Source: Phaeovibrio sulfidiphilus (lineage in GTDB: Bacteria; Pseudomonadota; Alphaproteobacteria; Rhodospirillales; Rhodospirillaceae). From it: a stretch of 64,000 nucleotides of DNA. The stretch lies in the NCBI RefSeq assembly GCF_014861485.1, contig NZ_JACZHT010000005.1, positions 124,001 to 188,000 on the forward strand, written 5' to 3'. The notes below the pieces were generated by a model. It had not been told where the DNA came from. It saw nothing but the letters and a program-made list of their open reading frames with translations, and did no database searches. Both the position numbers and the translations under genes were made by a program. The first letter of the stretch is position 1. The number at the start of each line of letters is the position of its first letter. Shown here piece after piece: positions 16,886-34,738 of this stretch.

Positions 16886-19800
16886 TTACCAGCGATACGT
16901 CACGCGGGCGCGGCCGCCGTGGGAGGTGGTGTGGGCCCCATACGCACCGTCGTACATCACGGTCAGGCCCCAGGTGTCGTCCAAGCGCACCTCGGCGCCC
17001 ACGCCCACCACCGCCGCATCCCGGTCCGCCGGCGTGCCCCGCACGAGGAAGTCATCCGACCCCGCAAGGAACGCCATCCGGCTGGTGGTGTCGATGTCGC
17101 CATAGACGTGCTCCCAGCCCAGGTCCAGCTTCAGGACCGCGTTCTCATGCACACGGGCATCCATACGCACACCCACCGTGGAGACCCCCGTATGGCTGGC
17201 CTGACTGTGTCCGCGCAGGCCCGCAACACCGCCGCTTTCCGAGAAGCCCTCGGTGTAGCCCATAGCCCACGAGCCTCCGGCAAAGGGCTCCACCATCAGG
17301 GCGTCCGTGGCCTGGATCCGCCAGGCGGCCTCGCCCACAACCTGGAACACGTTGGCCCCGTAGTCCGCCTTCAGGCGCTCTCCGAGAGCGGTGCGCCGGC
17401 TGTCGATGCCGTGGCGGGTGTAGACGCCCCCAAGGGTCGTGCGGAGCGAGCCCGTGCCCACGTCCCAGACCCGCCCGCCATAGGCCCCGCCCGAGAACGA
17501 GTGGATGTCGGCCTTGAACAGGCGGTCCGACACCCGGAAATCCCGGTAGCCGTAGCGGAACAGGTCGCCGGCGAACCAGCCGTCCTCGAAGCTGAAGGTC
17601 GCCCCGGCCCGGACGCCCACGCCGCTGGCGGTGGAGCGAGCCGCGTTGCCGTCCCCGTCCCAAGTGTTGTGCACGCCCGAGACCTGGGCCCAGACCCGGT
17701 GGTTCTTGCGCAGGCCCGTGGCGGGATCGACCTCAACCGGACCCCGCGACGCCACCTCGAGACGGCCCCCGCCCGGCATCCCGTCCACGGACGGGGCCAT
17801 GTCGGACAGGGTGTTCATCAGGGTGCGCGAGAGCTCCAGGGCGCCGTGGCGGATCATGTGGCCCACGTTGGCATGCCCGTCGCCGGAGAACAGGTCGAGA
17901 AGCCGGATCCCCTCGCTGCGCGAGGCGTTGATCATGGCGTTCTGGACCGGACCGGGGGCCATGGTGCCGATGGCTTCGGCTGTGGCGATCTCGTTCGGGG
18001 TCAGGCCCTCCCAGGGAGACGGCGGCACGGGGCCAGGGCCGGGCCCCGGACCGGGACCAGGGCCGGGACCAGGACCGGGCTTCGGCCCCTGGTAGGTGGC
18101 CCGCAGGCCGATGGCCGCGGCGTCCTCGCCGTCGGCAACCACCTTGCCATTGGCGTCAAGGCGCACCTGGTCCAGGCTCAGGAACGGCAGGTCCGCCGCC
18201 TTGTCCAGGATCGAGAACGTGCCCACGACTTTCCGGGTGTCCTCCCGGGCCACCAGGACCGTGTAGATCTTTTCCGACGCCCAGCCGCTTCCGATGGCCT
18301 TGACCACCTTCAGGGTGGAGCCGTCCGGGACGCTCACATCACCCATGCGGACCTCCAGCAGGTCGCTGCGATCCGCCGTGACCCGGACCTGGAGCGTGAA
18401 CGTCTTGTCGTTCGTATTGAACCCGTTGACCGAGAGGGTGCCGACCGTGTCCTCTGCGCCCGGAGCCACGGTGGTGCCGCTGTTGCCCAGGATCAGCCCG
18501 CCGCCCCATGTGAAGGCGCCGCCCAGCGTGCCCCCGTTCAGGGTGAAGGGGCCGGTTGCCCCGGTCTGGTCGCCTGAAAGGAGGACTTTGCCATCACCCT
18601 CCTTGAAGACCTTGCCGCCGCCGGACATCTTATCCGTGTAGGCAAGCTCCTTGCCCGCACCGATATCAAAAACGAAGGTGCCCGCGTTCGCAATGTCACC
18701 CTTAACGGACTGCCCCCGAACGATCATCGTTGCATCCGTGGCGATGCTATAGCCGTTGGCAAAGTCCAGATTCACATCAAACGTGGCGTTGGCGTTCCCC
18801 GTCAGCTCCATTTTCCGGGTGGCCGGGGTGTAGTTGGTCTCCTTGTCCGCCGCCGAGACGATCTCGCCGCCCTTGAACACAAACGTGCCGCCCTTGATCT
18901 CCATGCCGGCCACGACCACGCCACCGGCATTGATGTCGACGGTTCCCGTATGCTCCGGGATGAATTCCACCGCGTCGCCCGGGAGGAACACGGTCAGGGT
19001 TGTCCCGTCCGGCAGGCGCCACATGTCTGCAATGGTCGTGTTCCACTCATTGCTGCCCCCCACCCACGTCAGCTTTCGGTTTTGCACAGCCCGAGCCACT
19101 GTCAGCATCTGAACCGTATCGCCCTTTTCGAGCCAGCCCTGCAGAACCTGGCCGAGGCGCGTGTCGGCAAAGTTCTCGCCCCGATAGGTCAGCCTCACCT
19201 TCCCCGCCAGATCCACGCCCGCATCCAGAAGAGCGTATTCCGTCCCCTTGACGTTCGTGAACGACCGGATATCGAGCGTGACCGTCTCGCCCGCCGTCGT
19301 CGGCAGGACCACCTTTTCGGCCCGCAGGGTGAGAATCGCCTCTCCCGTTTTCGCCGCGTCCAGATCGAAGGTCAGGGTGGAGCCGGTCTTCAGCGTGATG
19401 GTTCCGCCGGTCTCCGCGGTGGGGTTTTCGCCACCATTTCCAGCATAAATTTTGTGGCCGCTCCCCTCAAGATGCAGAAGAGCGGAGGGCTCCAGGGTGA
19501 AGGAGGATTTCAGGCCCCGAAGATCGACGGTTGTGCCGCCGGACGCCCCGGCCGCGAAGGCAAGGGTTCCGTTCTTGACCAGAAACTCCGTCCGGCTGTT
19601 GTCTTTACCGTCAGTGGTGAAGCGGTTCTCACCTCCAAGCCACCAGATGCTGGCCGCGTCCTTGACGAGGGTGACGGCCCACCCCTCTGTTGCCTGCCCT
19701 CCCATGGGATCGGAGCGCATATCCACCGTGCCGCTTCCCGAGACACCGACCTGAAGCATCACATCATCATACCATGCGTCCATATACACGGAGTTGGCAC

Positions 19801-21628
19801 GTCCGTTGGCCATATTGCCACTGAAAAGGATGGCCTTGCCAGCGCCGGGATCGAGCGTAATTGTGCCACCTGCAGAGTATATGGCACCACCTTCGGTGGA
19901 CGCGGTGTTTCGAAGAAAATTCGCACTGCCGCTAACGACCATCGTCTTCAGATTGTATAAAGCGCCTCCGCGCCCGTTAGGCCCCAGAGCACTGTTTTCA
20001 ATAAAATCAACGGCACTATTGAAGTAAACGGACCCAATCGAGCTTGAAACCGCCCCACCGATAGCCCTGCTACCGATGTCGTCAGACGAAACCGTGTTCC
20101 CAAGAAACTCGGTAAAACCATCAAAGATAATTTTCCCGAAATTGTGCACAGCTCCCCCGCTAGCCAAACCCTTAATGGTTTTCGCGGAATTTCCAGAGAA
20201 TGACGTCGACCCGAGAAACTTGATCGATCCATATCGATTATTAATAGCACCACCATATGATGCATTTGAAACGTCAGTTTCAAAAATACTCTTATTTAAA
20301 GCCTCATTTTCATCAAATTTTACATCACCACTAAACTGAGTTTCTTTCTCATTAACAAAAGCACCACCAGAAACATGAGTGGCACCATTTAATTCGCTTC
20401 CAAATAAAACTGATCTATTTTCCTTGAAAGAGGCTGATCCAGAAAAATACATCTTTCCCGAATTGAAAACGGCCCCTCCAGACGCGCTCTTTCCCCCTTT
20501 AATCAATTCGGCGCTATTTTTTCTGAAAATAGAATCACCATAAAAGCTGACGATGCCACCGGACTGATTGTGGATCGCGCCACCGCGTGCCTCCGTAGCT
20601 GCATCAGAGGACGAGGAGACCGCCTTATTTTCCAGAAATTCGGCGTGCTTATGAAACGCAACAACCGATCCGCCGAAGAGGGCTCCGCCACTGGCAAACT
20701 GAGCATCCCCCGTGGTTTCTGCAGAATTGGAGTCAAAAAAAGCATCGTCGAGAAACGAAACAAATGCATACCCCTTACTGTAAACGGCGCCCCCATGAGA
20801 ATTTGCAGAAGATCCTGACGATGTTGATTTATTTGATAAAAATTTAGATGTTCCCGAAAAAGAAATCTCAGCCTGCTCATTATTGACCGCACCGCCACAG
20901 GCGTTACCCATATATCCGTTCGTTTGAGCCGTATTTTCGTTAAAAATAGCTTTTCCTTCAAATTTTATAGTTCCTGAAATTTTGTTAAAAACTGAACCAC
21001 CTCCAGCGAAAGCAGACTCGCCATCAGCAAACACTGAATTTCTCAAAAATTCAGAATCAGAAAGCACTAATCCTCTTGATTTGTTTGAAATTGCTCCCCC
21101 TCTTGCAATACCATCTTTTGAACTTGAATTTCTCGCTCCGTTATAACGGAACACAGAATGCCCCACGATTAAAACGCCTGATGTGGAGCTTTGTATGTCA
21201 ATCGCTCCGCCCTCAGCTAAACCGCTGGTCTGATCAAGAGTGTTTCCTTGGAACGTGAGCGTCTTTCCGTACGCCACCGAAAGGGTCAACAACACATCGC
21301 TTCCCACGACCAGCCGCTGATCCGCAGTGCCCGCGGTTGCGCTGAGCGTCGTGTCGCCGCCAAACGTCAGCTTTCCGGACGATCCGGAAAACGTCAGATC
21401 GGACAGCTTGCCGCTGAACTTCGGATCCAGAACCAGTTCGTCCCAGGCCACCTCATCGGTCACGATACATTTACCGTCGCCACTCGGGCAGTCATGGCCG
21501 GCAGCGAGCGCTTGACCAGCACCGGTAGCGGTCAGCGCCAGAACAAGGGCCAGACTGGAAAGAGCACAACTGCCCCTATAAACAGGCCTGTTGGCTGGGG
21601 ACGCGCAGCGACAGCTCAAAACGCACAT
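16886..21628 (-). CDS. Autotransporter 1: Pmp-like type V secreted protein
   Basis: A protein of about 1580 residues. The ATG at 21628 has GGAGG 7 nt upstream; a GTG two codons earlier is too close to it. Order: signal peptide (LALVLALTATGAGQALA, to about residue 43), a Cys pair (DCPSGDGKC), a passenger with about 14 GGA[ILVF]/GGS motifs each paired with FxxN (FNENTA, FLENKA, FSGNSA...), a second beta-helix region with PATRKMELTGN and GTTVAPGAEDT-type autotransporter repeats, a Pro-Gly linker, then a C-terminal beta-barrel ending in YRW, the usual aromatic terminus for outer-membrane assembly. GGA[ILV] plus FxxN is the hallmark of chlamydial Pmp adhesins. The passenger DNA at about 19.9-21.25 kb is markedly AT-richer than its surroundings. 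Confidence 0.9.
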   Translation of the reverse strand: MCVLSCRCASPANRPVYRGSCALSSLALVLALTATGAGQALAAGHDCPSGDGKCIVTDEVAWDELVLDPKFSGKLSDLTFSGSSGKLTFGGDTTLSATAGTADQRLVVGSDVLLTLSVAYGKTLTFQGNTLDQTSGLAEGGAIDIQSSTSGVLIVGHSVFRYNGARNSSSKDGIARGGAISNKSRGLVLSDSEFLRNSVFADGESAFAGGGSVFNKISGTIKFEGKAIFNENTAQTNGYMGNACGGAVNNEQAEISFSGTSKFLSNKSTSSGSSANSHGGAVYSKGYAFVSFLDDAFFDSNSAETTGDAQFASGGALFGGSVVAFHKHAEFLENKAVSSSSDAATEARGGAIHNQSGGIVSFYGDSIFRKNSAELIKGGKSASGGAVFNSGKMYFSGSASFKENRSVLFGSELNGATHVSGGAFVNEKETQFSGDVKFDENEALNKSIFETDVSNASYGGAINNRYGSIKFLGSTSFSGNSAKTIKGLASGGAVHNFGKIIFDGFTEFLGNTVSSDDIGSRAIGGAVSSSIGSVYFNSAVDFIENSALGPNGRGGALYNLKTMVVSGSANFLRNTASTEGGAIYSAGGTITLDPGAGKAILFSGNMANGRANSVYMDAWYDDVMLQVGVSGSGTVDMRSDPMGGQATEGWAVTLVKDAASIWWLGGENRFTTDGKDNSRTEFLVKNGTLAFAAGASGGTTVDLRGLKSSFTLEPSALLHLEGSGHKIYAGNGGENPTAETGGTITLKTGSTLTFDLDAAKTGEAILTLRAEKVVLPTTAGETVTLDIRSFTNVKGTEYALLDAGVDLAGKVRLTYRGENFADTRLGQVLQGWLEKGDTVQMLTVARAVQNRKLTWVGGSNEWNTTIADMWRLPDGTTLTVFLPGDAVEFIPEHTGTVDINAGGVVVAGMEIKGGTFVFKGGEIVSAADKETNYTPATRKMELTGNANATFDVNLDFANGYSIATDATMIVRGQSVKGDIANAGTFVFDIGAGKELAYTDKMSGGGKVFKEGDGKVLLSGDQTGATGPFTLNGGTLGGAFTWGGGLILGNSGTTVAPGAEDTVGTLSVNGFNTNDKTFTLQVRVTADRSDLLEVRMGDVSVPDGSTLKVVKAIGSGWASEKIYTVLVAREDTRKVVGTFSILDKAADLPFLSLDQVRLDANGKVVADGEDAAAIGLRATYQGPKPGPGPGPGPGPGPGPGPVPPSPWEGLTPNEIATAEAIGTMAPGPVQNAMINASRSEGIRLLDLFSGDGHANVGHMIRHGALELSRTLMNTLSDMAPSVDGMPGGGRLEVASRGPVEVDPATGLRKNHRVWAQVSGVHNTWDGDGNAARSTASGVGVRAGATFSFEDGWFAGDLFRYGYRDFRVSDRLFKADIHSFSGGAYGGRVWDVGTGSLRTTLGGVYTRHGIDSRRTALGERLKADYGANVFQVVGEAAWRIQATDALMVEPFAGGSWAMGYTEGFSESGGVAGLRGHSQASHTGVSTVGVRMDARVHENAVLKLDLGWEHVYGDIDTTSRMAFLAGSDDFLVRGTPADRDAAVVGVGAEVRLDDTWGLTVMYDGAYGAHTTSHGGRARVTYRW
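18022..18086. repeat. Pro-Gly dipeptide repeat tract in autotransporter 1
   Basis: A simple GGNCCN-type repeat encoding a run of Pro-Gly pairs between the passenger and the barrel. The matching tract in autotransporter 2 (about 23229-23268) is shorter and interrupted by Asp and Leu. Such tracts change length easily. Confidence 0.75.
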
Positions 21629-21990
21629 GATCACGCCTCCGGGTATTGGTGCTGAACCAACAAACGCAGCCAGAAGTCTAGTGTCCCGGTGAAAAAAACA
21701 TCAAGAATAAAAGGCCCAAAAAACTCACAATGAGTCACTATATTAATTTTTGTGACTTAAGGACAACCACTTGAAAAATGTAATTAATAGCCATATGCTC
21801 AGTTTTTCGTGTACAATCTTTTAATTAACATGTTATTTTTGCCCAATGAGATTTTTAAATCCCCCTCCGGTCTGGCCGATCCAAAAGTCCGGTCAGAAAT
21901 GTTCCTATCTTTGAATGACGTCTCGATGCTCCCGGATACATACCCTCATGCCGGACAAGCGGAGCGGACGTGCCCCAAAACGGGCTCAGT

Positions 21991-22088: not shown

Positions 22089-25000
22089 TTACCAGCGATA
22101 CGTTACGCGGGCGCGGCCTCCGTGGGAGGTGGTGTGGGCACCATACGCACCGTCGTACATCACCGTCAGGCCCCAGGTGTCGTCCAGACGCACCTCGGCG
22201 CCCACACCCACCACCGCCGCATCCCGGTCCGCCGGCGTCCCCCGCACGAGGAAGTCATCCGACCCCGCAAGGAACGCCATCCGGCTGTTGGTGTCGATGT
22301 CGCCGTACACGTGCTCCCAGCCCAGGTCCAGCTTCAGGACCGCGTTCTCATGCACCCGGGCGTCCATACGGACCCCCACCGTGGAGACCCCCGTATGGCT
22401 GGCCTGGCTGTGCCCGCGCAGGCCCGCAACGCCCCCGCTTTCCGAGAAGCCTTCGGTATAACCCATGGCCCACGAGCCTCCGGCAAAGGGCTCCACCATC
22501 AGGGCGTCGGTGGCCTGGATCCGCCAGGCGGCCTCGCCCACAACCTGGAACACGTTCGCCCCGTAGTCCGCCTTCAGGCGCTCGCCCAGAGAGGTGCGCC
22601 GGCTGTCGATGCCGTGGCGGGTGTAGACCCCGCCCAGGGTCGTGCGCAGCGAGCCCGTGCCCACGTCCCAGACCTTGCCGCCGTAGGCCCCGGCCGAGAA
22701 CGAGTGGATGTCGGCCTTGAACAGGCGGTCCGACACCCGGAAATCCCGGTAGCCGTAGCGGAACAGGCCGCCCGCAAACCAGCCGTCCCCGAGGCCAAAC
22801 GAGGCCCCGGCCCGGACACCCACGCCGCTGGCGGTGGAGCGCGCCGCATTCCCGTCCCCGTCCCAGGTGTTGTGCACGCCCGAGACCTGGGCCCAGACCC
22901 GGTGGTTCTTGCGCAGGCCCGTGGCGGGGTCGACCTCAACCGGACCCCGGGAGGCCACCTCGAGGCGGCCCCCGCCCGGCATCCCGTCCACGGACGGCGC
23001 CATGTCGGACAGGGTGTTCATCAGGGTGCGCGAGAGCTCCAGGGCGCCGTGGCGGATCATATGCCCCACGTTGGCGTGACCGTCGCCGGAGAACAGGTCC
23101 AGAAGGCGCAAGCCCTCGCTGCGCGATGCGTTGATCATGGCGTTCTGGACCGGCCCCGGAGCCATGGTCCCGATGGCTTCGGCTGTTGCGATCTGGTTCG
23201 GGGTCATGCCCTCCCAGGGGGACGGCGGCAGCGGGCCAGGGTCCGGGCCGGGACCAGGCCCGGGCTTCGGTCCCTGGTAGGTGGCCCGCAGACCGATGGC
23301 CGAGGCGGGCCCCCGCCCGACAATCGGCTTCCCGTCCGCCCCCAGGCGTACCTGCTCGAGGATCAGGAACGGCAGGTCCGCCGCCTTGTCCAGGTGTTTG
23401 AAGGTGCCCACGACTTTCTGGCCCCTCTCCCGGGCCACCAGGACCGTGTAGATCTTTTCCGCAGCCCAGCCGCTTCCGATGGCCTCGACCACCTTCAGGG
23501 TGGAGCCGGACGGAACGATCACGGTCCCCGAGCGGACCTCCAGAAGGTCGCTGCGATCCGCCGTGACACGAACCTGGAGGGTGAACGCCTTGCCGTTCGT
23601 GTCGAACCTGTTGACGGAGAGGGTGCCGACCGTATCGGATGTGCCCGGCGCCACGGTGGTGCCCCTGTTGCCCAGCCTCAGCCCCCCGCCCCACGTGAAG
23701 GCGCCGCCCAGCGTGCCCCCGTTCAGGACGAGGCTGCCTGTGGCCCCGGTCTGGTCGCCGGAGAGGACCAGTGTACCCGCTCCGTCTTTCCCGAAGGTTC
23801 CGACACCGGTCAAAGGGTTGCCGTAGAGGAACGTCTTGTCTTTGCCGATGTCAAAAACGAACGTCCCGCTGTTGACTATTTTGCCCTCGATGGCGCCACC
23901 CCTGACGGTCATTTTGGCGCCGCTGGCGATGTCATAGCCGTTGGCAAAGTTCAGGTCCACGGTGTCCTCGAAGGTGGCGTCCGCGGTCCCGCTCAGCTCC
24001 ATTTTCCGGGTGGCCGGGGTGTAGTTGGTCTCGTCGCCTGTGGCCGAGACAATCTCGCCGCCCTTGAACAGGAACGTGCCGCCCTTGATCTCCATGCCGG
24101 CGACCACCACGCCACCGGCGTTGACGTTGACGGTTCCCGTATGCTCCGGGATGAACTCCACCGCGTCGCCCGGGACGAACACGGTCAGGGTTGTCCCGTC
24201 CGGCAGGCGCCATTTGTCTGCGATGGTCGTGTTCCAGTCATTGCTGTCCCCGACCCAGGTCAGTTTCCGGTTCCCACGCTGTTTGACAAGCAGCTTCTGA
24301 ATCTTCTTGTCGTCGCTCAGCTCCCCAACCAGACTCTCACCCAGTTGCGTGCTGGTGATGTCCTCGCCCCGGTAGGTCAGCTTCAGTTTTCCTGTCAGGT
24401 CCACGCCCGCGTCCAGGAGCCAGTACTCGGTGCCCGCAACATTCTTGAACGACCGGATATCGAGCGTGACTGTCTCGCCCGCAGCCGTCGGGAGGATCAC
24501 GTTTTCCGCCCGAAGAGTAAGGACCGAGGTTTTCTGCCCGGCCTTGTCCAGGTCGTACGTCAGGGTGGAGCCTGCGGCCAGGGTGATGGTCCCGCCCGTC
24601 CCTGTATCGGGGTTGAGGCCACCGTTCCCGACCAGAATTTTGTGGCTGTCGCCCACGAGCGAAAGGGTGGCCGGGGCCTCCAGGGTGAAGGCAGACTTCA
24701 GGCCCCGGAGATCGACGGTTGTGCCGCCTGCGGTGTCGGCCGCAAAGGCCAGCTCCCCGCGTTTGACCAGAAACTCCGTCCGGCTGTCCGCGTTGTCATC
24801 CGTGATGAAGACGTTCTCGCCCCCCAAGGCCCAGGTGCCGGTGCCATCCTTGACGAGAGTAACGGCCCGCCCGCCCGATGCCTGGCCTCCCATGGGATCG
24901 GACTTCATGTCCATCCTGCCCGCTCCCTCAACCTTCAGGACGGCATCCATGTTTGTGCTGCCCGATACCCCGCTCACGAGATAAATCGAGTTCGCTTTCC

Positions 25001-27086
25001 CCCCGGCCGTATTCCCGCTAAAGAGGATCGTCTTGTCAACGGTCTCGGGGGCCAGGGTTATCGTGCCGCCAAGGCTGCAAATGGCACCGCCGCCTGAGGT
25101 CGCCTTGTTCCCGGAAAACTCCACCTCACCAAGAATCTCGACCGTTCCCAACTCGTTGTAGAGAGCTCCGCCAAACCCGCTGTTGTTTTTGCTCTCTGCC
25201 TCGTTGTCCTTGAAGGAAACGGCACCCGAGATAACGGTCTTGCCCCTCTGGTTATAAATGGCGCCGCCACGCGTGCTGTCCCCGATGGCCTTATTATTCT
25301 TGAACTCTCCGCCATTTTTCAGAGTAAAAACACCGGAAAGGCCCATGTTTGATACGGCTCCTCCATTGGCGCGCCCGTTAGTTTCCTCGCTCTGGGCGAT
25401 ATTTTTGGAGAAAGAGGCAAACTGTTCAAGCGTGACGGAATCCTGATTGTTCATGATCGCACCACCAACAGCAGTCCGACCCAGGGCTTTGTTGTCGGTG
25501 AATGTCGAGGCCTGAGTCACAGTGACTTTACCGCCGGCGACGAGCGATGCAATTGCTCCCCCGTAGGCGACGCCCTGCTGTGCATTGGTGCTTTTGACCG
25601 TATTGGATTCGAAGGTCACGGCGTCGGAAATGGACACCTCACCGCCAAATGAGTTGAAAATCGCCCCACCGTACGCCATGGGACCGACGGCCACGTTATC
25701 GCGGAATTCTCCTCCAGCCGCCAGAGTCACCTTGCCCTTTACAGTCGTATTGAAAAGCGCGCCGCCCCGGGAATAACCGAGAGTCCCCGTATGTTCGGCC
25801 TTGTTCCCTGTGAACTGGGCGTACTTTTCAAGCGTCACCGTACCATTATTGGTATTCAGAACGGCTCCGCCCTCACTTCTTCCATTTTCACCCGAACCCA
25901 CAACTTTGTTGTCTGAAAACGATGATTTTTCATTAAGCGTCACCGCTCCTCCATAGTTATAAAGAGCACCGCCTCCGGCAAACCCAGTCTGCACAGTACT
26001 CGTGCCGGAGTTGCCCTCAAATTTAGCGACCCCGGCGATTTTCAATATTGACCCGGACCAATTACTGATTGCGCCACCAAGAGCATAAAAGCCAGACACC
26101 TCATTGCGAAAGAACTCTGCCGTCTTTTCAAGAGTGACGCCTGCCGGATTTCCGGTGCTGAAAATCGCACCGCCATGGGCTTTTCCAGACCCCGCAGCCG
26201 TTGCTGTGTTCCCGGTAAAGCGTGCCGCATCTTTCAAAATCACAGCACCGTCAAGGCTGGCGATCGCTCCACCCCGGCTCAAACCGTCCCGTTCCATGCT
26301 GTTGGCAGTATTGTTTTCAAAGGTCGCCGCACCCACAATATTGACGGAGCCAGTAGAGTTGTAAATTGCTCCGCCGTTGGCCTGAGACGCTTGCTTTACG
26401 GCTTGAGCGCTGTTGTTTCTGAAGACAGCGGACTCATTGAAAATCGCATCGCCATTACGGTTGGAAAAAGCCCCCCCGTATGCGGCACTGGAGCTTTCAA
26501 CAACGCGCGCGGTGTTTTCTATAAACTCTATACGTCCCACATAGACAGAACCACCATCGCTGGAGATGGATCCACCGTAGGACAACCCTCTTAGCTTCTG
26601 GCTTTCCGAGAGGTTCTTGGTGAAGACAGAGGCGCCGGAGAGGGTTAACGACCCTTTATTGTAAATCGCACCCCCCTCGACAAGAGCATCTGCCTTGCTC
26701 AGGCTGTTCTCCATGATTTTCAGGGTTTTGGTGTCTGCCACGGACAGGGTCGCCGTGACACCGCCATCGACAGCCAGACGCTGGTCCGCGCTGCCGGATG
26801 TGGCCTGGAGCGTCGTGTCCTCGGAAAAGGTGACCTTTCCTCCCGATCCGGAGAACGTCAGGTCGGACAGATCTCGACTGAACTGCGCGCCCACAAGCTC
26901 TTCCCAGGCCACCACGCCCGTGACGGTACAGGTGCCACTACCGCCCGAAGGGCAGTCATAGGCCTGTGCCGACGCCTGCCCGGCCCCGGTGACCGTGAGC
27001 GCCAGAGCGAGAGCTACACCATAACGGACACGCATTCGCATCCTATGGTTGTGACTTGAGGCAAAAAAATGCCGCGACTGAGGCAT
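22089..27086 (-). CDS. Autotransporter 2: Pmp-like type V secreted protein
   Basis: A protein of about 1665 residues. The ATG at 27086 has GGGAG 9 nt upstream; an inner ATG at 27041 also fits the signal peptide (VALALALTVTGAGQASA). Layout as in autotransporter 1: signal, Cys pair (DCPSGGSGTC), passenger with about 17 GGA[ILVF]/GGS motifs alternating with FxxN, a second helix region (NRKLTWVG, WRLPDGTTLTVF, GGVVVAGMEIKGGTF), a short Pro-Gly linker and a C-terminal barrel ending YRW. From PSPWEG to the C terminus it differs from autotransporter 1 at only 12 of 378 residues by eye, while the GGA/FxxN passengers are strongly diverged. Likely exposed on the cell surface as an adhesin; the target is unknown. 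Confidence 0.9.
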   Translation of the reverse strand: MPQSRHFFASSHNHRMRMRVRYGVALALALTVTGAGQASAQAYDCPSGGSGTCTVTGVVAWEELVGAQFSRDLSDLTFSGSGGKVTFSEDTTLQATSGSADQRLAVDGGVTATLSVADTKTLKIMENSLSKADALVEGGAIYNKGSLTLSGASVFTKNLSESQKLRGLSYGGSISSDGGSVYVGRIEFIENTARVVESSSAAYGGAFSNRNGDAIFNESAVFRNNSAQAVKQASQANGGAIYNSTGSVNIVGAATFENNTANSMERDGLSRGGAIASLDGAVILKDAARFTGNTATAAGSGKAHGGAIFSTGNPAGVTLEKTAEFFRNEVSGFYALGGAISNWSGSILKIAGVAKFEGNSGTSTVQTGFAGGGALYNYGGAVTLNEKSSFSDNKVVGSGENGRSEGGAVLNTNNGTVTLEKYAQFTGNKAEHTGTLGYSRGGALFNTTVKGKVTLAAGGEFRDNVAVGPMAYGGAIFNSFGGEVSISDAVTFESNTVKSTNAQQGVAYGGAIASLVAGGKVTVTQASTFTDNKALGRTAVGGAIMNNQDSVTLEQFASFSKNIAQSEETNGRANGGAVSNMGLSGVFTLKNGGEFKNNKAIGDSTRGGAIYNQRGKTVISGAVSFKDNEAESKNNSGFGGALYNELGTVEILGEVEFSGNKATSGGGAICSLGGTITLAPETVDKTILFSGNTAGGKANSIYLVSGVSGSTNMDAVLKVEGAGRMDMKSDPMGGQASGGRAVTLVKDGTGTWALGGENVFITDDNADSRTEFLVKRGELAFAADTAGGTTVDLRGLKSAFTLEAPATLSLVGDSHKILVGNGGLNPDTGTGGTITLAAGSTLTYDLDKAGQKTSVLTLRAENVILPTAAGETVTLDIRSFKNVAGTEYWLLDAGVDLTGKLKLTYRGEDITSTQLGESLVGELSDDKKIQKLLVKQRGNRKLTWVGDSNDWNTTIADKWRLPDGTTLTVFVPGDAVEFIPEHTGTVNVNAGGVVVAGMEIKGGTFLFKGGEIVSATGDETNYTPATRKMELSGTADATFEDTVDLNFANGYDIASGAKMTVRGGAIEGKIVNSGTFVFDIGKDKTFLYGNPLTGVGTFGKDGAGTLVLSGDQTGATGSLVLNGGTLGGAFTWGGGLRLGNRGTTVAPGTSDTVGTLSVNRFDTNGKAFTLQVRVTADRSDLLEVRSGTVIVPSGSTLKVVEAIGSGWAAEKIYTVLVARERGQKVVGTFKHLDKAADLPFLILEQVRLGADGKPIVGRGPASAIGLRATYQGPKPGPGPGPDPGPLPPSPWEGMTPNQIATAEAIGTMAPGPVQNAMINASRSEGLRLLDLFSGDGHANVGHMIRHGALELSRTLMNTLSDMAPSVDGMPGGGRLEVASRGPVEVDPATGLRKNHRVWAQVSGVHNTWDGDGNAARSTASGVGVRAGASFGLGDGWFAGGLFRYGYRDFRVSDRLFKADIHSFSAGAYGGKVWDVGTGSLRTTLGGVYTRHGIDSRRTSLGERLKADYGANVFQVVGEAAWRIQATDALMVEPFAGGSWAMGYTEGFSESGGVAGLRGHSQASHTGVSTVGVRMDARVHENAVLKLDLGWEHVYGDIDTNSRMAFLAGSDDFLVRGTPADRDAAVVGVGAEVRLDDTWGLTVMYDGAYGAHTTSHGGRARVTYRW

Positions 27087-27510
27087 AACAGGACACTCCC
27101 GACCGTCTGACTTTTCCGAAAAGATAGAGACCATTAGGTCAGATCGACCAGAAACATCAACACAACACGAACTATAAAAGGCATATTTATATTTACAGTT
27201 GCAATTAAACAACCACACAATGAATGTTGATTCTTTTATTTTTCCGTAAACTCGATAGATTTCACGCACTTATATTCAACATAAACATTTAGTTGTTAAT
27301 ATTTACACCAAAATCCGGCATATCAGCTACCTGGGGTTCCGGGGCCGCTGGTGCCGAAACGGCCGGGACTGGGATCCGACGCGCGGGCGATTACATGGCC
27401 CGGCCGGCCGCCCGTTCGGCAGAAGCCCGCCAGCGCCCCGCCTGCGCCCCACATGCCCCCATATGGCCGCCCTTGGGCCGCCCCTGTGCCGCGCTGCAGT
27501 AACCTCCGGT

Positions 27511-27681: not shown

Positions 27682-29235
27682 ATGCCCATTGATCCAGACC
27701 AGGCTGCCCGGCTAGAGGAACGGCGCGAGCAGCTTCGCGAGGGGGGCGGGGTGGACGCGATCCGCAAGCGCCACGACCGGGGCCAGATGACCGCCCGGGA
27801 GCGGATCGACGCCCTGTTCGACAGCGGAACCTTCCAGGAAACCGGCCTTCATGTGCGCCACGCCACCCGGGCCTTTGGCGTTGACGAGCGCCGCACCCTG
27901 CCGGGAGACGGCGTGGTCTGCGGCACGGGCATGGTCTCGGGACGCCTGGTGTGCTCGTTCTCGCAGGATTTCACGGTCATGGCCGGGACGGTGGGGCGCA
28001 TGCATGCCCGCAAGGTCTGTGACGTCATGCACATGGCGGAAAAGACGGGCTCGCCGGTGGTGGCCTTCCAGGATTCGGGCGGCGCGCGCATCCAGGAGGG
28101 GGTCGAGGCCCTGGCCGGATACGGCGACATCTTCTATTCCAACGTTCTGCTGTCCGGGGTCGTGCCCCAGATTGCGGTCATTGCGGGCCCCTGCGCGGGC
28201 GGAGCGGCCTACTCCCCCGCCCTGATGGACTTCATCATCATGACCCGCACGAACGCCCACATGTTCATCACGGGCCCCGAGGTGATCCGGGCGGTGACCG
28301 GGCAGGACACCACCATGGACGCCATCGGCAGCGCCGCAATGCACGCGGGGGTCTCCGGCAACGTGCACTTCATCGCCGAGGACGACCGCCACGCGGTCGA
28401 GCTTGTGCACCGGCTCCTGTCCTTCCTGCCCGCGAACAACTCCGAGGATCCGCCCAACATCCCGATGGACCTGGCGGTGGAGCCGGACCCGGTCATGAAC
28501 ACCCTGCTGCCCGACGATCCCGCCATGGCCCTGGACGTGCGCACGATCGTGAGGCGCCTTGTGGACGCGGGGGACTTCCTCGAGGTCCATGCCGCCTTCG
28601 CGCGCAATCTGGTGGTGGGCTTCGGACGCCTCTACGGGACCGTGGTGGGCATCATCGCCAACCAGCCCATGGTGCTGGCCGGAGCCCTTGATATCGACTC
28701 CTCCGACAAGGGGGCGCGCTTCATCCGGTTTTGCAACGCCTTCAACATTCCGGTTGTGACACTGGTGGACGTCCCCGGCTTCATGCCCGGCGTGGACCAG
28801 GAACGGGGCGGCATCATCCGTCACGGCGCCAAGCTCCTGTTCGCCTATGGCTCGGCCACGGTTCCCAAGATCACCGTCATCCTGCGCAAGGCCTACGGCG
28901 GCGCCTACCTGGCCATGTGCGGCCAGGCCATGGGGGCGGACGTGGTCTATGCCTGGCCGTCGGCGGAAATCGCGGTCATGGGCGCCGAGGGGGCGGTCAA
29001 CCTGCTCTACCGCGCCGAGCTGGCCGAGGCGGATGACCGGCGGGAAAAAGCCGCGGAGCTGGCGGCCGAATACCGGAGCGAGTTTGCCTCGCCCTACCAT
29101 TCGGCGGCCCTGGACTTCGTGACCGACATCATCCTGCCGGAGGAAACCCGCTGGACCGTCGGCCTGGCCCTGCGCAAGCTCGCGGCCAAGCGCGAGCTGC
29201 GTCCGGCAAAAAAGCACGGGAACATTCCGCTATGA
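27682..29235 (+). CDS. mmdA: Methylmalonyl-CoA decarboxylase alpha subunit (biotin-dependent carboxyltransferase)
   Basis: A 517-residue acyl-CoA carboxyltransferase with two crotonase-like halves: N half GVVCGTGMVSGRLVCSFSQDFTVMAG and GGARIQEGVEAL, C half DVPGFMPGVDQERGGIIRHGAK and ILRKAYGGAYLAMCG. It ends in KHGNIPL, as typical for MmdA/PccB. It transfers the carboxyl group from the acyl-CoA to biotin. By itself it could be a propionyl-CoA carboxylase beta chain, but the genes that follow (OadG-like, biotin carrier, OadB-like) define the Na+-pumping decarboxylase. The ATG at 27682 follows AGAGG closely. Its stop overlaps the next start (ATGA at 29232). The acyl substrate (methylmalonyl-CoA versus glutaconyl-CoA or similar) is inferred from subunit size and order. 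Confidence 0.88.
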   Translation: MPIDPDQAARLEERREQLREGGGVDAIRKRHDRGQMTARERIDALFDSGTFQETGLHVRHATRAFGVDERRTLPGDGVVCGTGMVSGRLVCSFSQDFTVMAGTVGRMHARKVCDVMHMAEKTGSPVVAFQDSGGARIQEGVEALAGYGDIFYSNVLLSGVVPQIAVIAGPCAGGAAYSPALMDFIIMTRTNAHMFITGPEVIRAVTGQDTTMDAIGSAAMHAGVSGNVHFIAEDDRHAVELVHRLLSFLPANNSEDPPNIPMDLAVEPDPVMNTLLPDDPAMALDVRTIVRRLVDAGDFLEVHAAFARNLVVGFGRLYGTVVGIIANQPMVLAGALDIDSSDKGARFIRFCNAFNIPVVTLVDVPGFMPGVDQERGGIIRHGAKLLFAYGSATVPKITVILRKAYGGAYLAMCGQAMGADVVYAWPSAEIAVMGAEGAVNLLYRAELAEADDRREKAAELAAEYRSEFASPYHSAALDFVTDIILPEETRWTVGLALRKLAAKRELRPAKKHGNIPL

Positions 29236-29627
29236 CCCTGGAGCCGGTCCTTTTCTCCCTCAAGGTGTACGGCCTTGTCATTGTCATCTCTTTCTTCTGC
29301 GCGGCGGTGATCCGGCTGATCGTTCTGGTCCTGTCGTCCCAGGCCGAGCGCTCCCGGGCCCGGGAGGCGGCACGGGACGCGGCAGGGGCAGGAGCACGAG
29401 CAGGCGGCCCCGACGCACCCGGGCCCGCCGCGGCCCCGGCGGTGTGCTGCGCGGGCGGCGACATCCCGCCCGAGCACGTGGCCATCATCGCCGCTGCGGT
29501 CCATGCCCTGGGGTTTGACGGCCCCGTGGTCCAGATTTCCGAGCCGAGGCCGCGGGAGGGCTGGGTGTCCGCCGGGCGCTTCGCCCTCCACTCGTCGCAC
29601 AACGTCTTCAAGGGGCGCCAGAGATAG
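29232..29627 (+). CDS. mmdD: OadG-like delta subunit of the Na+-pump decarboxylase
   Basis: A 131-residue protein with one N-terminal membrane helix (VYGLVIVISFFCAAVIRLIVLVL, about 12-34), an Ala/Gly-rich flexible linker (40-75), and a C-terminal segment (IAAAVHALGF ... W.SAGRFALHSSHN) characteristic of the MmdD/OadG group. This subunit holds the soluble carboxyltransferase and biotin carrier to the membrane pump. It overlaps mmdA by 4 bp. The short, fast-diverging sequence means the call leans on context. Confidence 0.78.
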   Translation: MTLEPVLFSLKVYGLVIVISFFCAAVIRLIVLVLSSQAERSRAREAARDAAGAGARAGGPDAPGPAAAPAVCCAGGDIPPEHVAIIAAAVHALGFDGPVVQISEPRPREGWVSAGRFALHSSHNVFKGRQR

Positions 29628-29725
29628 GCCCCGCCGCCCTCCGGAACGGACCGGGAGCAGACACAGACCGGGCGCAAGCCGGTCACCAGCCCCCACGCCA
29701 CGCCACACCACTGCAAGGAACCGAC

Positions 29726-30130
29726 ATGAGGCAGGAACTGCGAATTACCATTGATGGCCGGACCTACAACGTGATTGTGGAGAACGTCACCGGATCCTCG
29801 TCCGAGACCTTCTACCCCTCCCCCGCCATGCGCTCCGACATCATCGAGCCCACCATTGCCGAGACCCCTGCCCCCCGCCCGGCCGAGAAGCTCACGCCCT
29901 TTGCCGCCAACGCCCGCCCGGGCGACGTGGTCAGCCCCATGAGCGGGGTTCTGGTGGAGTACACCGTCAGGGCCGGGGACCGGGTCGCCCTGGACCAGCA
30001 GGTTGCCACCATCGAGGCCATGAAGATGAAAACCGTCATCGTCTCCCACCTGGAGGGAACCGTGACCAAACTGCATCTGGAGCCCGGCGCCCCGGTGGAG
30101 GCCGGCCAGCCCCTGGTCAGCATCGGCTGA
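29726..30130 (+). CDS. mmdC: Biotin carrier (gamma) subunit of the decarboxylase
   Basis: A 134-residue biotinyl-domain protein. N-terminal beta region (RQELRITIDGRTYNVIVE), a Pro/Ala linker (about 45-60), then a biotinyl domain (67-134) with the EAMKM motif placing the biotinylated Lys at residue 100. It shuttles CO2 from MmdA to the membrane beta subunit. A clear AAGGA precedes the ATG. The gap of about 98 bp from mmdD has no other gene. Confidence 0.9.
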   Translation: MRQELRITIDGRTYNVIVENVTGSSSETFYPSPAMRSDIIEPTIAETPAPRPAEKLTPFAANARPGDVVSPMSGVLVEYTVRAGDRVALDQQVATIEAMKMKTVIVSHLEGTVTKLHLEPGAPVEAGQPLVSIG

Positions 30131-30209
30131 ACCGGCCCGCCCGCGCGCGGTCCGGCACCCGCCGGCTCCGCCACACGCTCCCGGACAACGGCTGTTAAGG
30201 ATAGCGCCC

Positions 30210-31418
30210 GTGGACACCTTGCTTGCGGATACTCTCGACTTCTTTCAGGGCATTGCCACGCTCGTGTACGCCGAGGATCTCTCCATCACGGCGATGCGGC
30301 TGTTTCTGATCTTCCTGGGCGGGCTGCTGATCTACCTGGGCCGCAAGGGCGTGCTCGAGGCCCTTCTGATGATGCCCATGGGCCTGGGCATGATGGCCGT
30401 GAACGCCGGAGTGTTCTTCGGGATCGACCGAAAGCCCACCAACCTGTTCATTGACCCGCTGGTGGCCCAGACCGACGACCTGGTCAGCATTCTCCAGGTG
30501 GACTGGCTCCAGCCCATCTACACCCTCAGCTTCTCCAACGGCCTGATCGCGTGTCTGGTGTTCATGGGCATCGGGGTGCTCCTGGACGTGGGCTTCATGA
30601 TGGCCCGCCCGTTCCAGAGCATGTTCGTGGCCCTGTTCGCCGAGCTGGGGACGGTCGCGGTCTATCCGCTGGCGGTCTGGCTGGGCCTGACGGAAGGCGA
30701 GTCCGCCGCGGTCGCCACCATCGGCGGCGCGGACGGGCCCATGGTGCTGTTTGCCTCGCTCCTGCTGGCGCCGGCCCTGTTTGTGCCGATCACCGTGGTC
30801 GCGTACCTGTACCTGGGCCTGACCTACGGAGGCTACCCCTACCTGATCCGGATCATGGTGCCGAAGAAGCTCCGGGCCATCCAGCCGCCGCCGCCCAAAA
30901 AGCCGGTGGTGATCACCTCGGGGCAGAAGATCGTCTTCGCGGTGGTCATGTGCACCCTTCTGTGCCTCCTGTTTCCCGTGGCCTCGCCCCTGTTCTTCTC
31001 CCTGTTCCTGGGGATCATCATCCGGGAAAGCGGGCTCGAGCACCTCAGCCAGCTTCTGGGCACCACCATCCTCTACGGCGCGACCCTGTTCCTGGGCATC
31101 CTTCTGGGCGTGCTGACCGAGGCCAACACCATCATGAACCCGCAGGTTCTGACGCTCCTGCTGCTGGGGATCCTTGCGCTTCTGATTTCGGGAATTGGCG
31201 GGCTTCTGGGGGGCTACGCCCTGTATGTCCTGACCCGGGGACGCTTCAACCCGGTGATCGGCATCGCGGGAGTGTCGTGCGTGCCCACCTGCGCCAAGGT
31301 GGCCCAGAAGTCCGTGGCGCCGGGAGTAATCGTCCTGCCCGAGGCCCTGGGCGTGTCCATCAGCGGCGTCATCACGTCGGCGATCTTTGCGGGTGTTTTC
31401 GTGACCCTGCTGCGCTAG
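30210..31418 (+). CDS. mmdB: Na+-translocating decarboxylase beta subunit
   Basis: A 402-residue polytopic membrane protein of the OadB/MmdB/GcdB family. It decarboxylates carboxybiotin and pumps Na+ outward. The diagnostic pore motif GGADGP lies at 172-177 (Asp175 corresponds to the essential Asp of OadB), and FNPVIGIAGVSCVPTCAKVAQK near the C terminus is the second re-entrant signature. About nine hydrophobic segments are visible. The start is GTG at 30210 with AAGG 9 nt upstream. Last gene of the four-gene operon; it converges on recR. Confidence 0.93.
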   Translation: MDTLLADTLDFFQGIATLVYAEDLSITAMRLFLIFLGGLLIYLGRKGVLEALLMMPMGLGMMAVNAGVFFGIDRKPTNLFIDPLVAQTDDLVSILQVDWLQPIYTLSFSNGLIACLVFMGIGVLLDVGFMMARPFQSMFVALFAELGTVAVYPLAVWLGLTEGESAAVATIGGADGPMVLFASLLLAPALFVPITVVAYLYLGLTYGGYPYLIRIMVPKKLRAIQPPPPKKPVVITSGQKIVFAVVMCTLLCLLFPVASPLFFSLFLGIIIRESGLEHLSQLLGTTILYGATLFLGILLGVLTEANTIMNPQVLTLLLLGILALLISGIGGLLGGYALYVLTRGRFNPVIGIAGVSCVPTCAKVAQKSVAPGVIVLPEALGVSISGVITSAIFAGVFVTLLR

Positions 31419-34635: not shown

Positions 34636-34738
34636 AAAAGGCGGAAGACTGAACGCGACCCGCGGTGCATCCGTTACGGCTGCTTCCTTCCGGACCTGAC
34701 CGGGTTGGCGGAGCCTCACGCCCGCGCCAGCCTTCCGC
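34636..34738 (-). ncRNA. ffs: Signal recognition particle RNA (4.5S, small bacterial type)
   Basis: The minus strand carries the near-invariant SRP apical loop: GGTCAGGTCCGGAAGGAAGC (around 34682-34701), flanked by CCAACCC and AGCCGTAACGG. The ends pair (GCGGAAG with CTTCCGC at about 34640-34646), giving an RNA of about 100 nt. A CCTTTTTC run follows the 3' end. It binds Ffh for co-translational targeting. Position upstream of dnaX-ybaB-recR is conserved. Exact ends are estimated to within a few bases. Confidence 0.93.

Follow-up and report, generated by a model that had tools for sequence, protein, structure and literature searches.

A probable methylmalonyl-CoA decarboxylase operon in Phaeovibrio sulfidiphilus combines an MmdA-type carboxyltransferase with a MadB-type pump subunit

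The classical methylmalonyl-CoA decarboxylase, MmdADCB, is known from Veillonella and Propionigenium. A methylmalonyl-CoA decarboxylase has also been annotated, as given in the available text of the papers concerned, in most Defluviicoccus genomes (PMC9041414), in Candidatus Propionivibrio aalborgensis, where it has four genes (PMC4930944), and in Accumulibacter phosphatis type II (PMC12604563). The operon analyzed here is at positions 27682–31418 of a 64,000 nt stretch of Phaeovibrio sulfidiphilus DNA (the window; contig NZ_JACZHT010000005.1) and had been named a methylmalonyl-CoA decarboxylase operon, mmdADCB, in an initial annotation. It probably encodes a membrane-bound, biotin-dependent methylmalonyl-CoA decarboxylase. 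The set is called a hybrid because its catalyst is of the MmdA type and its pump subunit belongs to the MadB branch. The original name is retained for the substrate, methylmalonyl-CoA being the likeliest one to judge from the alpha tree and the mut genes, and is given up for the beta gene, which NCBIfam scores and a tree place outside classical MmdB.

The four genes are all on the + strand in the order alpha, delta, biotin carrier and beta, at exactly the coordinates first assigned. The biotinylated lysine in EAMKM (Lys100) and the pump aspartate in GGADGP (Asp175), which had been singled out in the initial annotation, are both intact. The features are as follows:

27682–29235, + strand: alpha, carboxyltransferase of the MmdA/PccB type, 517 amino acids (aa); PF01039 Carboxyl_trans, 599 bits
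29232–29627, + strand: delta, membrane anchor resembling oxaloacetate decarboxylase (OAD) gamma, 131 aa; PF04277 OAD_gamma, 22.8 bits (cut-off 27)
29726–30130, + strand: biotin carboxyl carrier (gamma), 134 aa; PF00364 Biotin_lipoyl, 62.9 bits; motif EAMKM
30023–30025, + strand: AAG codon of the biotinylated lysine, Lys100, read from the sequence
30210–31418, + strand: beta, putative MadB-branch carboxybiotin decarboxylase and cation pump, 402 aa; GTG start; PF03977 OAD_beta, 325.6 bits; motif GGADGP
30732–30734, + strand: codon of Asp175, the equivalent of OadB Asp203, from the sequence and a residue comparison

The ATG of delta overlaps the stop codon of alpha. The Pfam scores of alpha, carrier and beta are far above chance, and the delta score is the exception. 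With its own score below the cut-off, delta is assigned because homologues are present in other loci: it has 43% identity to the delta of a related locus (L050), and there are 55 matches longer than 90 residues across the loci, the window copy included. By eye, delta has a hydrophobic N-terminus, an Ala/Pro-rich linker and a conserved C-terminal block. The motif [AE]MKM is present in 93 of 101 carrier-like matches of the loci, a count that includes biotin domains of other enzymes. A scan for promoters and terminators gave no promoters and one terminator-like site, with 2.4 expected. Carboxyltransferase, carrier with its lysine, membrane beta and small anchor are encoded together without an adjacent biotin carboxylase, which is the arrangement that marks biotin-dependent cation-pumping decarboxylases. 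Judged by its gene content, the four-gene set is such a decarboxylase pump and is complete.

The affiliation of the beta subunit does not match the name first given to its gene. Its best NCBIfam match is TIGR03136, the model of the malonate pump subunit MadB, with 461 bits (cut-off 596.9, missed), and it also misses the cut-off of TIGR01109, the general Na+ decarboxylase beta model (164.8 bits, cut-off 190.6). Seven more betas of the same kind score 463.1–540.0 bits with TIGR03136, all below the cut-off. The TIGR01109 cut-off is passed by four of these (199.5–202.5 bits) and missed by three (174.6–189.5 bits). Names given automatically within this clade are unstable, because all eight of the betas scored, the window's included, miss the MadB cut-off and four of the eight miss the general one as well. 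The betas of L038 and L039, two loci with malonate decarboxylase carboxyltransferase genes, reach 808.2 and 769.1 bits with TIGR03136, and the glutaconyl-CoA decarboxylase (GCD)-type beta of L032 has 524.6 bits. Three classical betas score 449–510 bits with TIGR01109.

The betas were sorted by identity to the window beta into classes M (>55%), Mad (>45%) and C (below); the classes were then checked by tree, and L032 was separated by hand. In a quick beta tree (60 of 107 rows after 88% thinning, with L055, L059, L061 and L125 omitted), 42 M rows are on one side of a branch with a support of 83, and MadB and the GCD-type beta are their neighbours. These 45 rows together are set apart from 15 classical rows with a support of 100; depths at the branch between the two halves mean little because that branch is very long. 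By scores and tree position, the window beta is not a classical MmdB, and its clade adjoins MadB.

According to the accessible part of PMC7274780, the essential residues of OadB are Asp203, Ser382, Tyr229, Asn373, Gly377 and Glu40. A comparison was made with 106 beta rows besides the window (84 M, 2 MadB, 1 GCD-type and 19 classical). The equivalents of Asp203, Tyr229, Asn373, Gly377 and Glu40 are identical in the window and in 106/106 rows, the Glu40 equivalent having been placed by an alignment below threshold. The Ser382 equivalent, Ser356 in the window, is Ser in 84/84 M rows, both MadB rows, the GCD-type row and 16/19 classical rows. The window beta thus keeps all of the essential OadB residues, as a cation-pumping decarboxylase would. 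Its predicted model (predicted local distance difference test score, pLDDT, 75.3; predicted template modelling score, pTM, 0.75) has its nearest fold in OadB 6iww (E 1.7e-13, TM 0.67), and the next is CitS (E 3.1e-4). Na+ is the likely ion because the OadB Na+-site residues are kept in beta, and the second site is possibly different.

Changes at that second site and at four other positions bear on whether the MadB-branch pump moves H+ instead, or departs from two Na+ per cycle. Asn412 of OadB is replaced by Ser383 in the window, and the M rows have Asn in 53/84 and Ser in 31/84. The window equivalents of R304, N311, N315 and R389 all differ from OadB; R389 is Lys and N315 is Tyr in 84/84 M rows, and the other two positions vary. 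Two traits of the genome would also fit an H+ pump. The window genome is a 2.585 Mb draft, 97.6% complete, and each absence given here and below is that of one model on this one draft; PF03116 (NQR2/RnfD) has no match in it. The sole F-ATPase c subunit found in the genome has the stretches GAGIGVG and TEAIALF, with Ala after the Glu and, by eye, Val at the Gln32 position. Na+-type c subunits keep Gln/Glu32, Glu65 and Ser/Thr66, according to the available text of PMC2359735. Protons probably drive the ATP synthase, and direct ATP synthesis from a Na+ gradient is unlikely. An H+ pump, or one with a different Na+ number, is nevertheless improbable, as the first-site equivalents Asp175 and Ser356 are kept in 84/84 M rows. 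In addition, PMC7274780, in its accessible part, likens Asn412 to the Na+-coordinating Ser427 of another carrier (SeCitS, going by the citation) and counts MadB of M. rubra among the Na+ transporters.

The alpha subunit gives a different picture from beta. A careful alpha tree (40 of 81 rows after 82% thinning, with L132 omitted) separates 37 decarboxylase alphas, that of the window among them, from three PccB-like proteins, one of which is from the same genome, with a support of 100/100. The name PccB-like for this second carboxyltransferase of the genome comes from the biotin carboxylase gene next to it. A 26-row group (96/94) contains the alphas of MadB-type operons and adjoins those of classical operons (91/81). 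The beta phylogeny, which had been proposed as a check at the outset, puts beta with MadB against the classical betas; alpha goes with the decarboxylase alphas. The 26-row group includes one alpha that is accompanied by a classical beta (L043, genome G057). A beta swap in G057 was considered and is not established, as the approximately unbiased (AU) test does not reject a tree that moves this alpha out of the group (p 0.317). An earlier alpha tree omitted the duplicates L131, L143 and L145, plus L055, L059 and L061, which were treated as identical with the records L033, L035 and L036. The second alphas of L066 (650–2272) and L072 (2–1510) were first labelled M only because the locus carries a beta at another place; the final tree labels L066 unknown, and L072 was thinned out.

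Genes of the methylmalonyl-CoA pathway are present in the window genome, where the mutase and epimerase had initially been suggested as something to look for. MutA, MutB and MeaB are encoded in a row, with MutB at 1309.5 bits (cut-off 876) and MeaB at 502.4 bits (cut-off 329). There is a methylmalonyl-CoA epimerase (161.6 bits, cut-off 114.95) and a ScpC-type succinyl-CoA:acetate CoA transferase (749.7 and 713 bits, above cut-offs of 658.7 and 500). The genome also has an IcmF mutase, a succinate dehydrogenase/fumarate reductase (SDH/FRD) flavoprotein and a separate pair of PccB-like and biotin carboxylase genes. In three related loci (L051, L088 and L126) alpha, carrier and beta are found beside mutB (63–69% identity to the MutB of the window genome) and meaB, the latter being cut off at the locus end in L088. 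A pccB and a pccA homologue follow in L051, and a classical beta also follows in L088 and L126. From the alpha phylogeny, these neighbours in relatives and the pathway genes of the genome, methylmalonyl-CoA is the likeliest substrate.

The choice of subunit matters for this assignment. A substrate read from the beta family would make the system a malonate pump, and one read from alpha would be methylmalonyl-CoA. A Na+-pumping malonate or malonyl-CoA decarboxylase would agree with the best NCBIfam match of beta and with the grouping, at a support of 100, of its clade with the true MadB of L038 and L039 against the classical betas. This possibility is very unlikely. The 461 bits of the window beta miss the TIGR03136 cut-off, whereas the malonate-locus betas score 769 and 808, and alpha is one fused MmdA-type protein of 517 aa and not split as in L039. 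Nor does beta decide the substrate, because a member of its clade occurs with an OadA-type alpha in L054 and a near relative with GcdA in L032. On these three grounds malonate as a substrate from the beta tree alone was dropped.

Several points weigh against a methylmalonyl-CoA-decarboxylating Na+ pump in this operon. The nearest branch of the window beta is that of the malonate pump, and the second-site residue and four others depart from OadB as described above. MutA has 468.5 bits with its model, which is its best match yet below the cut-off of 617.25. TIGR01117 was dropped as proof of MmdA, since it fails to separate MmdA from PccB: the window alpha has 729.8 bits and alphas beside classical betas have 723.4 and 742.9, and the PccB-like protein of the same genome scores higher at 800.7 (cut-off 998.8). 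Only 4 of the 80 named loci have a gene with 45% or more identity to the MutB of the window genome, and one of the four (L124) has a PccB-like alpha with its M-type beta. The genome encodes cytochrome bd, so the cell may not be a strict anaerobe. The three papers cited at the outset annotate methylmalonyl-CoA decarboxylase, in their available text, without an assay. What the sequence itself establishes is the four parts with their families, the kept Na+-site residues and the existence of the pathway genes in the genome; we infer substrate, ion, direction and physiology.

If the operon is a methylmalonyl-CoA decarboxylase, alpha would transfer CO2 from (S)-methylmalonyl-CoA to the biotin of the carrier, leaving propionyl-CoA. 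The carrier would swing to the membrane beta, which would free CO2, take a proton from outside and export Na+ by an elevator-like movement, and delta would hold the parts together. The pathway would lead from succinyl-CoA through MutAB to methylmalonyl-CoA, by way of the epimerase to propionyl-CoA, and by the ScpC-type transferase to propionate and new succinyl-CoA. The outcome under low oxygen would be a sodium gradient. With a c subunit that has no Na+ ligands, this gradient would serve Na+-coupled uptake or Na+/H+ exchange and not the ATP synthase. Operation in the opposite direction, with a Na+ gradient driving propionyl-CoA carboxylation, is hardly likely: the reversibility of such pumps is mentioned in the accessible part of PMC7274780, and MutAB with the epimerase could also serve propionate consumption, but the PccB-like and biotin carboxylase pair of the genome would carboxylate with ATP, and the ScpC-type transferase and the missing COX1 match fit propionate formation.

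The initial annotation had also proposed an energy gain during anaerobic growth. Its anaerobic part is compatible with the genome, since a low-oxygen life is plausible from the presence of cytochrome bd and the lack of a match to PF00115 (COX1, haem-copper oxidase) in the draft; its energetic part is narrowed by the c subunit, which argues against direct ATP synthesis. A literature search on sodium decarboxylases with cytochrome bd in alphaproteobacteria found nothing useful. A role in polyhydroxyalkanoate (PHA) storage is discussed for Defluviicoccus and Propionivibrio in the available text of PMC9041414 and PMC4930944. In the window genome this role is disfavoured because PF07167 (PhaC_N, PHA synthase) has no match in the draft, and propionate release is more likely.

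The idea that the set is out of place in its lineage does not hold. A profile search finds a PF03977 gene in 70 of 297 genomes of the order, and the available text of PMC9041414 has the enzyme annotated in Defluviicoccus; a rare or misplaced operon is ruled out by the former count. By score there are 38 classical matches in 36 genomes and 41 MadB-branch matches in 41 genomes, with both classes in 9 genomes and short fragments only in 2. For the hybrid, 41 is a ceiling, as MadB and GCD-type betas fall in the same score class. Scanning named genomes gave at least 561 confirmed relatives, of which the best 80 were kept, so that the sample leans to close relatives. These 80 include Accumulibacter, Propionivibrio, Rhodoferax, Dechloromonas, Competibacter, Contendobacter, Defluviicoccus and Magnetococcales. 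A few are labelled Actinomycetota, Verrucomicrobiota, Ignavibacteria, Bacteroidetes or cyanobacterium, and many of the 80 are metagenome-assembled genomes (MAGs). A full-length MmdA-type alpha with more than 55% identity is on the locus in 59 of the best 80; the other 21 have contig-end cuts, a partial or PccB-like alpha, or none. The closest relative among them is L050 (beta 78%, alpha 71% identity). The hybrid set is widespread and not odd for its lineage. Many bacteria from the environment carry it, among them wastewater-plant organisms that accumulate polyphosphate or glycogen, and the ion and stoichiometry of the pump bear on one proposed source of their anaerobic ion gradient.

The same kind of beta is also found with other partners. 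In a Propionivibrio MAG (L054:7516–10869), the one such case among the 80 named loci, a biotin carrier and a carboxyltransferase of the OadA type flank it, and the locus gave no MmdA match. The OadA-type alpha has 705.7 bits with TIGR01108 and misses the cut-off of 756.5; going by its gene content, the L054 pump has swapped its catalytic partner. In a genome of the same order (L032:6753–11480), a MadB-branch beta occurs with a GcdA alpha (712.7 bits with 3gf3). The best match of the adjacent gene there is glutaryl-CoA dehydrogenase (441.3 bits, cut-off 470 missed), and the set probably decarboxylates glutaconyl-CoA and has a pump of the MadB type. Genes for MadB-type and for classical betas are within about 2 kb of each other in L064, L088, L123, L124 and L126, and L064, L088 and L126 have a single MmdA-type alpha on the locus. 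In Rhodoplanes tepidamans (L087:5649–9194) a MadB-type beta is beside an ActP-type cation/acetate symporter, with no alpha of a tested kind in 8 kb. Two Magnetococcales loci (L103:5748–9169 and L123) have betas with no alpha detected, which follow a conserved membrane-like protein. This protein has 84% identity between L103 and L123 and matches no Pfam family at E 0.001.

A tentative reading, which we hold to be somewhat doubtful, is that the MadB-branch beta represents a distinct, unnamed pump lineage that acts as a substrate-neutral module, its branch being paired with carboxyltransferases of the MmdA (59 of 80 named loci), OadA (L054), GcdA (L032) and malonate (L038, L039) kinds. Its second cation site, and hence its ion or stoichiometry, may differ from OadB, and in many proteobacteria it would be the methylmalonyl-CoA pump in place of classical MmdB. 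A literature search, with subscription papers mostly outside it, found no paper on a MadB-type beta in a methylmalonyl-CoA decarboxylase.

The tested neighbours of the operon in the window are two autotransporters, recR, dnaX and mostly housekeeping genes, with no pathway genes among them. The distance from the operon to ybaB is 0.8 kb. In L033 and L035, from one genus of the same family, the set is about 4.2 kb from ybaB-dnaX, which is on the opposite strand. The nearness of the set to ybaB-dnaX in all three suggests an old site shared with L033 and L035. Side by side before the operon are two very large autotransporters with repeats of the chlamydial polymorphic membrane protein (PMP) type, at 22089–27269 and 16886–21634, both on the - strand. 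Stretches resembling the one at 22089–27269 also occur elsewhere in the same genome (L144 and L145). A bacterial small signal recognition particle (SRP) RNA is at 34640–34736 on the - strand (Rfam RF00169, 53.7 bits).

A comparison with the known systems shows partial likeness to each of them. The window beta is homologous to that of OadABG (6iva/6iww; E 8.2e-37), which is also its nearest fold, and delta is weakly of the OAD gamma kind; unlike that system, alpha is not OadA, and beta has the R389 to K and N315 to Y changes. With the malonate pump of Malonomonas rubra the window shares the position of beta beside MadB against the classical betas and TIGR03136 as best model. However, its beta is only 51–53% identical to the MadB of L038 and L039, which stand in for M. 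rubra, and lies below the equivalog cut-off. The carboxyltransferase of malonate decarboxylase is split (MadC/MadD, e.g., L039), whereas the window alpha is fused and MmdA-like, so that neither mark of a malonate decarboxylase is found. Classical MmdADCB has the same four parts, and the window alpha shares a clade with the alphas of operons whose beta is classical. In contrast, the strong homology to OAD beta (TIGR01109) that marks the classical beta is not seen in the MadB-branch beta of the window, which has 28–37% identity to the 19 classical betas of the loci (none from Veillonella or Propionigenium). The affinity of beta to MadB is unmentioned in the available text of PMC4930944, PMC12604563 and PMC9041414. 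Ca. P. aalborgensis (L072) and Defluviicoccus (L120, where delta is not clearly detected) carry the same kind of set as the window, and together with Accumulibacter they have 65–68% identity to it in beta and 63–66% in full-length alpha.

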